Shown: piece by piece, positions 13,132 to 16,737 of the stretch
How the letters are laid out: each line of letters begins with the position of its first letter
Numbering within the stretch: position 1 is the first letter of the stretch
Assembly: GCA_025964895.1 (NCBI GenBank)
Contig: JAOPXY010000100.1
Span: 1 to 58,805, forward strand
DNA from: Aeromicrobium sp.
Lineage (GTDB): Bacteria; Actinomycetota; Actinomycetes; Propionibacteriales; Nocardioidaceae
Direction of reading: 5' to 3'
DNA: 58,805 bases
Notes under the pieces: model-generated
What the model saw: only the letters and a program-made list of their open reading frames with translations
Databases searched by the model: none
Told to the model about the DNA's origin: nothing
Made by a program: the position numbers and the translations under genes

Positions 13132-14658
13132 TCAGATCCAGCGGTTCCACCACATGCGGTCGCGCCACGACGCGTACGGAATCAGGTCGTCGGTGTAGAC
13201 GGGGTGGAAGAACCAGAACGCCACGACGGAGGCGACGAGGAACAGGCCGACCGTCAGTCCAATGACGTAGCGGTGCCGCGGCGACGTCCCCGACCGGATC
13301 AGGGCGTCGATCACGAGGCAGAGGGCGATGATCGTGAACGGCACGAACACGACGGCGTAGAAGGAGAAGATGGGCCGGTCGGCGAAGCGGAACCACGGCA
13401 GCCAGCACACGAGGACCCCGACGACGGGGACGGCCCAGGTCGACGACCGGGTGCGGATCCAGGCCGCGGCGGCGGCGACCAGGGCCAGGATGCCGGTCCA
13501 CCAGATGATCGGGTTGCCGAGGATCAGGATCTCCCGGACGCACGTGTCGCCCTCCGCCTGCCCGCACCGGGTCGAGGCGGGGAGGTCGAACTGGGCGTCC
13601 GCGCCGACGGGACGCCACTGGAGCAGCCACGTGCCGGGATCGGACTGGTAGGGGTGCGTGGCGGAGTTGAGGTCGGAGGCGTGGAAGTCGTACGTCATGA
13701 CGTGGAAGTGCCACAGCGACCGGAACGCGTCCCGGGTCTCGCCCAGGAAGCCCGTCGTGGGCCGGTCGACGTAGCTGCCCCAGGGCGCCGAGTAGTCGCC
13801 GTACCCGTGGCCGAAGCGCGCCTCGTACACCTCGTGGTGGAGCAGGAAGCCGGTCCACGTGACGAGGTAGACGAGCACCGCGACGCCGACGATCGAGACG
13901 AAGGCGGGCGGTCCCACGACGAGCATGCGCCGCAGCCAGCCGTGGCCCCGGCCGGTGTCGCGGCGCGCCCGCACCTCCCACAGCACGGCGAGCACCCCGA
14001 ACGCGGCCAGGACGTACACGCCGCTCCACTTGGTCGCGCACGCCATGCCGAAGCTGACGCCGGCGAGCAGCTGCCACGGGCGGACGAACCGGTAGCGGTC
14101 GAGCCGGTCGCGGATCCAGTCGCGGTCGGCCACGAGGCATGCGACGCCGCAGACGACCCAGAACGCCAGGAAGATGTCGAGCAGTGCCAGCCGCGACATC
14201 ACGAAGTGCATGCCGTCGACGGTCAGCAGCAGCGCCGCGATGCAGGCGACCGTGACCGACCCGGTGAGGCGCAGCACGAGGCGCGCCAGCACCAGCACCG
14301 TCAGGGCGCCCACGGCGACGCCGGACACGCGCCAGCCGAACGAGTCGAACCCGAACACCCACTCGCCGAGCGCGATGACCCACTTCCCGCCGTCGGGGTG
14401 CACGATCCACGACGGTTCGCCGGTGAGGATGCCCGTCAGGTCGCCCTTGACGATCTGGGCGTTGGCCTGGTCGGTGAAGTCCTGCACGTAGCCGTGCTGC
14501 AGCAGCGACCACGCGTCCTTGGCGTAGTACGTCTCGTCGAACACGAACGTGTTGGGGTACCCGAGGTTCCACGCCCGCAGCACGAAGGCCAGCACCGCGA
14601 TGCCGATCGGGCCGATCCACCCCCACGCGCGATGCGGGATGCGCGCCAGGACCGTCAC
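13132..14658 (-). CDS. pmt: Protein O-mannosyltransferase (PMT/GT39 family)
   Basis: A 508-residue polytopic membrane enzyme that transfers mannose from polyprenyl-phosphate-mannose to Ser/Thr of exported proteins. The first loop carries the catalytic FVFDETYYAKDAWSLLQHGY (Asp-Glu). Later landmarks include KWVIALGEWVFG, VDGMHFVMSRLALLDIFLAF and GYGDYSAPWGSYVDRPTTGF, with about eleven transmembrane segments. GTG 14658 has GAGG three bases upstream, so a short N-terminal difference is possible. In Actinobacteria this gene typically sits next to and divergent from rsmI. Here the pair is split by a palindrome-bracketed AbiEi/DUF559-like gene. Confidence 0.9.
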   Translation of the reverse strand: MTVLARIPHRAWGWIGPIGIAVLAFVLRAWNLGYPNTFVFDETYYAKDAWSLLQHGYVQDFTDQANAQIVKGDLTGILTGEPSWIVHPDGGKWVIALGEWVFGFDSFGWRVSGVAVGALTVLVLARLVLRLTGSVTVACIAALLLTVDGMHFVMSRLALLDIFLAFWVVCGVACLVADRDWIRDRLDRYRFVRPWQLLAGVSFGMACATKWSGVYVLAAFGVLAVLWEVRARRDTGRGHGWLRRMLVVGPPAFVSIVGVAVLVYLVTWTGFLLHHEVYEARFGHGYGDYSAPWGSYVDRPTTGFLGETRDAFRSLWHFHVMTYDFHASDLNSATHPYQSDPGTWLLQWRPVGADAQFDLPASTRCGQAEGDTCVREILILGNPIIWWTGILALVAAAAAWIRTRSSTWAVPVVGVLVCWLPWFRFADRPIFSFYAVVFVPFTIIALCLVIDALIRSGTSPRHRYVIGLTVGLFLVASVVAFWFFHPVYTDDLIPYASWRDRMWWNRWI

Positions 14659-14691
14659 ACGCCTCAGCCTAGATGAGCCCCGGGCGCGGTC

Positions 14692-14774
14692 GATTCTCCA
14701 CCGTCTCAGGGGGGTGCGGTGCTTCCTCCACCGTATGAGGCCCATTTCCGGCCCGTACGGTGGAGAATCCACCG
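14692..14774. repeat. Palindromic repeat cluster, left bracket of AbiEi/DUF559 gene 1
   Basis: Three related units are present. GATTCTCCACCGT (14692-14704) is repeated imperfectly as TTCCTCCACCGTATGAGG (14723-14740). Its exact reverse complement ACGGTGGAGAATC occurs at 14757-14769. The right unit also folds by itself (CGGTGGA-GAA-TCCACCG, 14758-14774). The same words recur on the other side of the gene at 15817-15872. Confidence 0.88.
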
Positions 14775-14871
14775 CCCCGGCGGTGTCCACAGGGTTGAGG
14801 GGTCGAACGGGATGTCCACCGCCGTCCGACGACGTCTGTCGCCTGGACGCTCCGGCGAGGTCGTCTGGGGG

Positions 14872-15834
14872 ATGCGCACTCCACGACCCGTGCCCGAGCA
14901 CCTCCGTCACCGGACCTTCAGCCGCGACGAGGCACTCGCGGCGGGGATCAGCGCCCGGATGCTGGAGCACCGCCGGTTCCGGGAGGTCTATCCCCGCGTC
15001 TACTGCCTCCGTGACCTCATGATCCCACCCGCCGAGCAGATCGCGGCGGCGCGGCGCAACCTCCCGCCGGACGCCAGAACCACCCACGTGACCCGTCTGC
15101 GCGAGCTCGGGTACGAGCAGGGACCCGTCGAGCCGCTGCACTTCGTCGTGCCCCGGGACCTACATCTCGATGTCGAGGGCATCACCCTGCACCGGACGGT
15201 GCTCATGCCACCGAACGACGGCATCGGAGTGTGCGGGGAGGCGGTGTTCGTGTCGCTCGCGCACACCGAGCGGATGATCGACCTGATCGTGATCGGCGAC
15301 TGGATGTTGCGCGAGGGCCACCTGACCCTCGATGCGTTGCGCGCCTTCGTAAACGCGACGCCGTGGCGGCCGGGTGCCTCGGAAGCCCTTGCCGTCGTCC
15401 CTCACCTCGACGCTCGCGCGAGATCGCCCAAGGAGTCCGAGATGCGGGCCGTCGTGATGTTCAGCGGTCTCCCGACCCCGGAGATCAATGCGGAGGTGCG
15501 CGACGCGGCGGGCGAGCTGGTCGGCATCGGTGACCTCGTCTACCGGAGGTGGCGGCTGCTGGTCGAGTACGAGGGACGGCAGCACGCGCTGGACACCGGT
15601 CAGTTCAACCGCGACATCGACCGGTACGGCAGCTTCCGCACCCTCGGCTGGGGCTACCACCAGGTCACCAACGAACGCCTGGCCCGGCCCCGGGTCATGG
15701 TGCTCCGGATCCACGACGAGCTCGTGCGTCGCGGCTACGACGGTCCGCCGCCGGAATTCGGTCGACTCTGGAACTCCCTGTTCCGGCCCGTGGCGCTCCT
15801 GAAGCGGCGTCGCGGTGAATTCTCCACCGTCTGA
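14872..15834 (+). CDS. AbiEi-like N-terminal / DUF559 Vsr-like nuclease-fold protein, copy 1
   Basis: A 320-residue protein. The N-terminus (about 10-50: RTFSRDEALAAGISARMLEH, then VYPRVYCL) looks like the winged-helix AbiEi-type antitoxin domain. The C-terminal part (about 185-290) resembles the DUF559/Vsr endonuclease fold: SPKESEMR, GDLVYRRWRLLVEYEGRQHA, then a basic DRYGSFRTLGWGYHQVTNER. No partner toxin gene is adjacent. ATG 14872 was chosen because family members begin just before this helix; ATG 14812 would add 20 residues. The last codons (EFSTV and stop) are encoded by the right-hand palindromic repeat. Function is unknown. It interrupts the usual pmt/rsmI neighbourhood, suggesting insertion. 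Confidence 0.75.
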   Translation: MRTPRPVPEHLRHRTFSRDEALAAGISARMLEHRRFREVYPRVYCLRDLMIPPAEQIAAARRNLPPDARTTHVTRLRELGYEQGPVEPLHFVVPRDLHLDVEGITLHRTVLMPPNDGIGVCGEAVFVSLAHTERMIDLIVIGDWMLREGHLTLDALRAFVNATPWRPGASEALAVVPHLDARARSPKESEMRAVVMFSGLPTPEINAEVRDAAGELVGIGDLVYRRWRLLVEYEGRQHALDTGQFNRDIDRYGSFRTLGWGYHQVTNERLARPRVMVLRIHDELVRRGYDGPPPEFGRLWNSLFRPVALLKRRRGEFSTV

Positions 15835-15872
15835 GCCGCAATCTGCCCCCAGAAGGTGGAGAATCCACCGCG
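15817..15872. repeat. Palindromic repeat, right bracket of AbiEi/DUF559 gene 1
   Basis: AATTCTCCACCGTCTGAG (15818-15835) matches the left bracket unit ATTCTCCACCGTCTCAG at all but one or two positions. The inverted unit AGGTGGAGAATCCACCG (15854-15870) matches the unit at 14757-14774. The first unit contains the stop codon of the enclosed gene. Confidence 0.88.
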
Positions 15873-15909: not shown

Positions 15910-16737
15910 ATGCTGATCCTCGCCGCGACCCCCATCGGGCAGGTCGCCGACGCCAGCGGCCGCCTGGCCGAGGCGCTCGCGACCGCAGACGTGGTCGCCG
16001 CGGAGGACACGCGCCGGCTCAAGCGGCTCGCGTCCGAGCTGGGCGTCGAGATCGGCGGCCGGATCGTGTCGTACTTCGAGGGCAACGAGGAGCGCCGCAC
16101 GCCCGAGCTGGCCGCGTTCCTCGCCGACGGCCTGACGATCGTCCTGGTGACCGACGCCGGCATGCCGAGCGTGTCCGACCCGGGCTACCGGCTCGTCGTC
16201 GCGGCGATCGAGGCCGACATCAAGGTGACCTCGATCCCGGGGCCGTCCGCCGTGCTCACCGCCCTGGCCGTCTCGGGCCTCCCGGTCGACCGGTTCTGCT
16301 TCGAGGGCTTCCTGCCCCGCAAGGCCGGCGAGCGGACGACGATCCTGACCGAGCTGGCGGCCGAGCGCCGCACCATGGTGTTCTTCGAGTCGCCCCACCG
16401 CACCGAGGCCTCGCTGCGCGCGATGGCCGACGTCTGGGGCGCCGACCGTCCCGCCGCGGTGTGCCGCGAGCTGACCAAGACGTACGAGGAGGTCGCCCGC
16501 GGCGGGCTGGGCGAGCTCGTCGAGTGGGCGGCGAACCAGGAGCAGGGCGTGCGCGGCGAGGTCACGATCGTCGTCGCCGGCGCCACGGCCGAGCGTCGCA
16601 CGTACGCGCCGAACGACCTCAGGGCGCTCGTCGCGGCGCGCCAGGGCGACGGCCTGAGCCGAAAGGACGCGATCGAGCAGGTGGCGGGGGAGACCGGCGT
16701 CCGCAAGAAGGACGTCTACGACGCCGCGCACTCGTGA
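15910..16737 (+). CDS. rsmI: 16S rRNA (cytidine(1402)-2'-O)-methyltransferase
   Basis: A 275-residue SAM-dependent enzyme of the tetrapyrrole-methylase fold that methylates C1402 in the ribosomal P site. Landmarks: LILAATPIGQVADASGRLAE, DVVAAEDTRRLKRL, VLVTDAGMPSVSDPGYRLV, ITSIPGPSAVLTAL-type (here VTSIPGPSAVLTALAVSG), FEGFLPRK, TMVFFESPHR and CRELTKTYEE. ATG 15910 aligns with the family N-terminus; the frame extends upstream into the palindromic repeat and should not be used. metG follows 33 nt downstream from its own promoter. Confidence 0.95.
   Translation: MLILAATPIGQVADASGRLAEALATADVVAAEDTRRLKRLASELGVEIGGRIVSYFEGNEERRTPELAAFLADGLTIVLVTDAGMPSVSDPGYRLVVAAIEADIKVTSIPGPSAVLTALAVSGLPVDRFCFEGFLPRKAGERTTILTELAAERRTMVFFESPHRTEASLRAMADVWGADRPAAVCRELTKTYEEVARGGLGELVEWAANQEQGVRGEVTIVVAGATAERRTYAPNDLRALVAARQGDGLSRKDAIEQVAGETGVRKKDVYDAAHS

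Follow-up and report, generated by a model that had tools for sequence, protein, structure and literature searches.

A gene of the actinobacterium Aeromicrobium sp., whose predicted product joins an AbiEi-like half to a Vsr-type nuclease, stands between two matching palindromic doublets, and doublets of the same type are dispersed over the rest of the genome. We consider it probable, at roughly 60%, that gene and repeats form a REPtron-like system built on an enzyme unrelated to the one known from REP sequences, in which the nuclease binds, cuts and propagates its cognate palindromes. The window, by which we mean the whole stretch of DNA analysed, comprises 58,805 nt of JAOPXY010000100.1 (GCA_025964895.1), and the own genome is the 3.44-Mb draft to which it belongs.

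The only enzyme with which REP sequences have been described is RAYT/TnpA-REP, an HUH protein, the mechanism of their spread being still unresolved, and a REPtron is a single, housekeeping-like RAYT gene beside its cognate palindromes (both from PMC8266576). Inverted doublets of REPs are termed REPINs (PMC3116915, in part), and the REPs themselves carry a GTAG or CGTC tetranucleotide tag (PMC3733652, in part).

The gene and its flanking palindromes

The features of the locus are collected in Table 1. The left and right doublets are 75% identical across 60 nt, and each can fold on itself through 23-nt arms that are 83% (left) and 91% (right) complementary. The word TTCTCCACCG occurs three times in 58.8 kb, every time at this locus, where shuffled versions of the window hold a mean of 0.14 and at most 1, and the flanks of the gene align with a score of 46, compared with a median of 25 and a maximum of 35 for 178 tiled blocks of the window. 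These figures confirm the description in the first-pass annotation of a gene bracketed by related inverted repeats, and its statement that the right-hand repeat codes for the last residues is borne out by the open reading frame, to which the overlapping right doublet supplies the final codons and stop (...EFSTV*). A longer GTG-started frame from 14719 is likewise open. Intrinsic terminators and Rfam families were considered as identities for the palindromes and gave no matches between positions 14500 and 16100; phage carriage was considered as well, and a viral scan confirmed none of 85 pattern-matching stretches.

Table 1. Coordinates of the nuclease gene, its repeats and its neighbours in the window
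Feature	Position	Strand	Remarks
pmt, left neighbour	13132..14658	-	name as in the first-pass annotation; end from ORF list, start from comparison with relatives
Left outer single palindrome arm	14685..14709	+	repeat family D3; 88% identical to right-hand arm
Left palindrome doublet, 60-nt hairpin	14716..14775	.	model R1 69.3 bits (R1 training sequence)
GTCCACAGG motif, DnaA-box-like, family-wide	14785..14793	+	TCCACAG in upstream flanks
Companion motif GTCCACCG	14814..14821	+	29 nt from first motif; spacings of 28 and 29 nt are most frequent in the family
AbiEi-fold + Vsr-type nuclease gene (predicted)	14872..15834	+	320 aa; ORF list
Right palindrome doublet, 60-nt hairpin	15812..15871	.	model R1 74.7 bits (R1 training sequence)
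rsmI, right neighbour	15910..16737	+	name as in the first-pass annotation; ORF list

A second element is found on the upstream side of the gene across the family. TCCACAG, usually in the form GTCCACAG(G), is located some 50-110 nt before the aligned protein start, and we take it to resemble a DnaA box. Of the 87 loci in a first set from the genus, 72 have it in the upstream flank and 1 in the downstream flank (1.7 in shuffles); of the 52 in a second set, 39 have it upstream and none downstream, which makes 111 of 139 upstream flanks in all. Its density is 3.28 per kb on the gene strand and 0.13 on the other, where the background is 0.04-0.08, and it is often paired in tandem at a spacing of 28-29 nt. 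Outside the genus it was found at 12 of 23 loci (23 of 31 loci having been checked).

The encoded protein

The AlphaFold2 model of the window protein, with a mean pLDDT of 93.3, predicts an AbiEi-fold half (about residues 3-180) fused to a Vsr-type nuclease (about residues 185-289). Residues 185-289 match the homing endonuclease I-Bth0305I (3r3p; Z 10.4, 2.2 Å, 95 residues) and Vsr (1cw0; Z 8.0, 2.2 Å, 99 residues), and residues 3-180 match AbiEi (6y8q; Z 9.3, 5.5 Å, 171 residues); the match to Rv2827c (1zel) is weaker (Z 6.8) and spans a wider residue range. Of the VIA-align matches, the AbiEi, Vsr and I-Bth0305I entries were the ones used; TnsA is among the others, at Z 4.8, and Foldseek by itself gave no match to the model with E up to 0.001. 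E188, D221, E232 and H238 are invariant across 48 sequences, the acidic residues presumably being catalytic as in other members of the Vsr-like PD-(D/E)XK fold. The PADLOC AbiEi model recognizes the window protein at E 1.4e-5 and 38 of the 48 sequences. In Pfam the protein stays under the cut-offs of DUF559 (13.0 vs 20.6 bits) and MTES_1575 (12.8 vs 38.2 bits), families with matches (E ≤ 0.01) in 26 and 24 of the 48 sequences, so that its DUF559-type assignment derives from the fold and from its relatives, not from the Pfam score. The earlier call of a Vsr/DUF559 nuclease thus stands for the Vsr/I-Bth0305I fold, to which the AbiEi half is added, and falls short for DUF559 by Pfam score.

In an Actinomycetota-wide sample the family is present in 84 of 296 genomes and 69 of 198 genera. 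It is under purifying selection, with dN/dS between 0.115 and 0.527 over 11 pairs of homologues. The two highest values (0.44-0.53) belong to L018 compared with L023 and with L025, pairs whose palindrome tails differ, and the other nine lie at 0.115-0.271, a hint of co-evolution between protein and palindrome.

Paralogues and their palindromes

Seven matches to the window protein are found in the own genome, the window gene included, and the other six are 27-44% identical to it. L002 to L005 each have a different palindrome on both sides; L006 and L007, which are weaker partial matches, were left out before flanks were counted. For the counts, the left flank of a gene was aligned with its right flank in either orientation, and a score of 33, the 95th percentile of mismatched pairs, was taken as the limit. 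In a first set of 87 loci from the genus (L005 and 86 places from a search of 49 genomes) the median for own pairs is 59, against 23 for mismatched pairs, and 82 exceed the limit. The remaining places of the same search gave 62 loci, of which 10 fragments were dropped; the 52 full-length loci have a median of 62 against 23, and 50 pass. Left and right flanks therefore match at 132 of 139 full-length homologue loci in the genus, and ordinary controls rise above 33 in 0 of 29 cases for rsmI flanks and 1 of 178 for tiled window blocks.

Loci from other genera pass the same test in 27 of 31 cases, including loci of Mumia, Modestobacter, Klenkia and Cryobacterium, and a phylum-wide sample yields 15 of 26 testable loci (2 of 28 having been dropped), leaving 11 of 26 without matching flanks. 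A gene between matching palindromes is thus a common arrangement and not a universal one. The earlier proposal that each paralogue is flanked by its own palindrome family holds at L001-L005 and at most loci of the genus and of the other genera sampled, and is less general in the phylum-wide sample, with 15 of 26 testable loci. The nine loci L276-L279, L283, L285, L289, L294 and L295, from records of Geodermatophilaceae, Modestobacter, Blastococcus or Klenkia, have a common GTTGATCATCG-type palindrome around the gene.

When the palindromes are sorted by the protein tree, the head is common within a clade and the tail varies, and protein identity correlates with palindrome similarity (Mantel rho 0.45, p 0.001). 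Paralogues within one genome have palindromes with a median similarity of 15.5 (76 pairs), compared with 14-17 for pairs of proteins less than 50% identical, and proteins more than 70% identical in different genomes reach a median of 28.5 (40 pairs). Palindrome type thus tracks the protein clade and not the genome.

Dispersed doublets

The flanking repeats have many relatives elsewhere in the own genome. The word GGTGGANNNTCCACC has 12 occurrences, of which 2 adjoin the gene, where the reversed control has 0, and at the seven other loci examined it forms part of a 60-nt inverted doublet of the same type. Nine such 60-nt doublets, each of two palindromic arms in inverted arrangement and able to form a hairpin, were recognized in the own genome. 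The paralogues have dispersed repeats too: the L002-type arm has 74 matches (1 in the control), 5 on the contig of its gene and 69 on 20 other contigs, the L004-type arm has 15 (0 in the control), 2 of them at its gene, and an L003-type model gives 22 strand matches at 11 places, of which 2 adjoin its gene.

The position of these copies bears on the reading of the protein as an AbiEi-like autorepressor, in which the palindromes beside the gene would serve as operators and the scattered copies would define a regulon. Binding to inverted repeats within the promoters of their own genes is known for AbiEi and Rv2827c (PMC7319586, in part), and the predicted fold of the N-terminal half agrees with such a role. 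The palindromes at the window gene also lie downstream, however, overlapping the end of the gene, and 74 arms of the L002 type, 69 of them on contigs other than that of the L002 gene, would have to serve a single paralogue. Among 66 dispersed copies from 19 genomes, picked with the own-genome model R1 under stricter filters and placed by crude ORF calls, 27 have tandem neighbouring genes, 21 have convergent and 2 divergent ones, 14 overlap ORFs and 2 are undecided. The excess of convergent over divergent positions is the opposite of what operators would give and is the habit of REP sequences, and we regard the autorepressor as unlikely.

Single junctions can be followed between genomes. At glnA-glnE the own genome has a dispersed doublet where 13 relatives are bare, with junctions of 6-55 bp. 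Thirty loci were retrieved, and the junction could be read in 22: palindromes occur in 4, among them the own genome, a segment of some 0.8 kb in another 4 and one related arm in a single case. Neither the glnA-glnE junctions nor the compared parts of G007 and G039 showed a target-site duplication or a cleanly bounded 60-nt insertion. When dispersed copies are ranked against gene flanks, the flank from the genome that holds the copy comes first for 22 of 61 copies (3.4 expected, 18 genomes; mean rank 4.0 vs 9.5; 5 copies from gene-less genomes left unranked), a result that is only suggestive because the copies were chosen with model R1. Compensation between arms was considered as proof of selection on the hairpin and is unsupported in the 60-nt class, where shuffling arms within genomes gives p 0.41 for the whole stem and 0.88 for the variable part (n=34); in the 50-nt class (n=31) compensation is weak, with p 0.010 and 0.027, respectively.

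In G039 and G007 (L372-L391, L392-L411) hairpins also lie within dispersed composite repeats of several hundred bases, in which palindromes of other types are nested. One composite repeat in G007 (L398:15624-16652) contains a transposase-like ORF of 342 aa, which we take to be IS30-like. A palindrome pair of the CGGTAGGT type, resembling the one around the G007 paralogue L070, is also present in G007 (L395 5139-5162), and the corresponding place in G039 (L396 14002-14120) lacks it.

Co-occurrence of gene clade and palindrome

The 18 proteins of the clade of the window gene are monophyletic (support 0.935), with no other member among 149 sequences. Model R1 was made from the nine doublets of the own genome, and its matches were counted per strand in the 49 genomes of the genus. 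All 18 genomes with the clade have between 11 and 97 matches; of the 31 without it, 23 have none, 7 have 1-5 and one, G048, has 34. At least 11 matches are thus found in 18 of 18 clade-bearing and 1 of 31 clade-less genomes, for which Fisher's test gives p 1.6e-12, a value that does not count independent events because the genomes are related. On a pmt-rsmI-glnE tree, clade-less genomes have few or no matches even where they stand beside clade-bearing ones. The genomes in which palindromes are left at the site and no intact gene of the clade exists elsewhere have 5 (G035), 5 (G037) and 34 (G048) matches.

A second model, R2, was built from the L003 subclade. It has 22, 20, 14 and 4 matches in the four genomes of that subclade, 14 in G023, 12 in G011 and 0-4 elsewhere, including 0 in R1-rich genomes such as G002, G006, G007 and G039. 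Full-length genes of the wider L003 group, though not of the subclade, occur in G023. In G011 the group is represented only by an incomplete L090-like gene, next to genes of other clades, and G006, for all its lack of R2 matches, contains a fragment similar to L003. Palindromes of the L003 type mark a largely different set of genomes from those of R1.

These distributions can be set against the idea that the palindromes are bidirectional terminators or mRNA-stabilising hairpins and the gene a bystander. The preference of dispersed copies for the 3' ends of genes is what terminators would show, but no T-run terminator was found between positions 14500 and 16100 of the window, and the type of palindrome follows the protein clade, so that genomes without the clade, apart from G048, have few copies or none. 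We hold this explanation to be highly improbable.

The pmt-rsmI junction

rsmI occurs once each in 46 of the 49 genomes of the genus, and the gene adjoins it in 17 genomes, four of which (G007, G019, G027, G039) have the gene in the reverse direction. The neighbours at these 17 junctions are pmt and rsmI in 15, rsmI alone being readable in 2. Among the 29 genomes without the gene at rsmI, one junction is ended by a contig end and 28 are readable without an intact gene. Twenty-two of these measure only 37-124 bp, so that in most relatives pmt is the immediate neighbour of rsmI, as had been supposed, and empty sites do exist; G046 and G034 have other sequence at the junction. G048, G035 and G022 have palindromes at the locus without the gene, which G022 has elsewhere, and G037 has palindromes around a truncated remnant of the gene. 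Such gene-less palindromes, named in the first-pass annotation as a point against its idea if unchanged and terminator-like, differ from those of the window, and the window itself shows no terminator-like site between positions 14500 and 16100.

Taken together, the occupied, bare and inverted junctions and those with palindromes alone suggest vertical inheritance of the gene, accompanied by its loss or gain, its inversion and a single relocation. What had been called an insertion splitting pmt from rsmI therefore stands as far as the gene lies between them and relatives are bare, and the change may have been a gain or a loss. An ordinary mobile element, whose terminal inverted repeats would be moved by the encoded nuclease and leave miniature derivatives, could account for the inverted orientation in four genomes, the copy elsewhere in G022 and the existence of palindrome-only copies. 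A jumping element would not, however, be expected at the same junction in 17 of 18 clade-bearing genomes, and with 27-44% identity the six other matches in the own genome give no sign of recent copies; we judge this explanation very unlikely.

The same junction weighs on a role in defence, in which the dispersed palindromes would be self marks or decoys and invading DNA would be cut. The many matches to the PADLOC AbiEi model and the nuclease fold of Vsr and I-Bth0305I are in keeping with such a protein, but in every genome with both neighbours readable (15 of 17) the gene is solitary, with pmt on one side and rsmI on the other. To our knowledge there is no defence system with a palindrome family for each paralogue, which also counts against this role, and we find it improbable.

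Comparison with known systems

The REPtron-like reading is the one preferred here. As with the RAYT REPtron, one housekeeping-like gene copy lies beside its cognate palindromes (PMC8266576, in part), intergenic inverted doublets follow the gene in abundance, with the exception of G048, and protein and repeat vary together. In contrast to that system, the enzyme is a predicted AbiEi and Vsr-type nuclease in place of an HUH tyrosine enzyme, several unrelated palindrome families occur in the own genome, and the host belongs to Actinomycetota. PF01797 (Y1 transposase) has 0 matches in the own genome, with control matches in 5 of 14 genomes, and RAYT is rejected as the source of the repeats in the own genome. 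The system is therefore a REPtron by layout and departs from that class in its enzyme, because the own genome has no Y1 transposase and the fold is unrelated. The repeats resemble REPINs in having two inverted, hairpin-forming palindromic arms (arm pairing counted in 34 doublets of the 60-nt class and 31 of the 50-nt class); the GTAG/CGTC tag was not seen in them by eye, their heads being of the GCGGTG, GAGATTTG and AGATGTSGG types. The earlier suggestion of a REP/RAYT-like layout around a nuclease gene is supported by the matching flanks, the dispersed doublets, the pairing of clade with palindrome and the fold.

The fold of residues 3-180 is that of AbiEi antitoxins (6y8q; Rv2827c, 1zel), which are known to bind inverted repeats (PMC7319586, in part). 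Unlike the AbiE type IV toxin-antitoxin arrangement, the gene has no adjoining toxin gene, judged by its neighbours, which are pmt and rsmI wherever both could be read (15 of 17 genomes), and unlike the antitoxins it has an added nuclease domain and repeats both on its two sides and genome-wide. The catalytic domain shares its fold with Vsr and I-Bth0305I (Z 8.0 and 10.4); the DNA-binding half is different from theirs, and the gene has a housekeeping gene on either side and is not intron-borne. A homing endonuclease would cleave the empty site and copy its gene into it; at the pmt-rsmI junction the sites seen are empty, occupied or inverted, and any such transfer is hypothetical.

What appears new is the partnership of enzyme and repeat; judged by its layout only, the system might be classed as a variant of the REP type. 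Titles and abstract openings, with subscription papers and preprints thinly covered, gave no link of DUF559 or AbiEi to REP-like palindromes, and such a link may be published beyond the literature searched.

Proposed mechanism and implications

In the REPtron-like reading, a mostly vertically inherited gene, one for each palindrome family in the own genome, would maintain its own repeats. The AbiEi part would recognize one arm of the cognate palindrome, with its conserved head and variable tail, and the nuclease would nick or cut the palindrome, probably in its extruded or single-stranded state. Repair or replication would then copy the doublet to other intergenic sites and so maintain a REPIN-like population, different paralogues serving different palindrome families, and the host may benefit. 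A wider proposal, to which we would give even odds, is that the REP system was invented at least twice and that AbiEi-Vsr nucleases of Actinomycetota, several clades of which share a genome, recognize and propagate their own palindromes as doublets of the REPIN type, perhaps in step with replication by way of the DnaA-box-like pair upstream of the gene.

If the reading is right, this is a second, unrelated nuclease with the REP arrangement, and nucleases that keep palindromes would have evolved convergently. Several independent pairs of gene and palindrome in one genome could be used for tests of specificity, and G048, G035 and G037, where palindromes persist at the site without an intact gene, make the decay of palindromes measurable. 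The reading would also suggest a function for a large actinobacterial protein family and account for the intergenic palindromes in these genomes.
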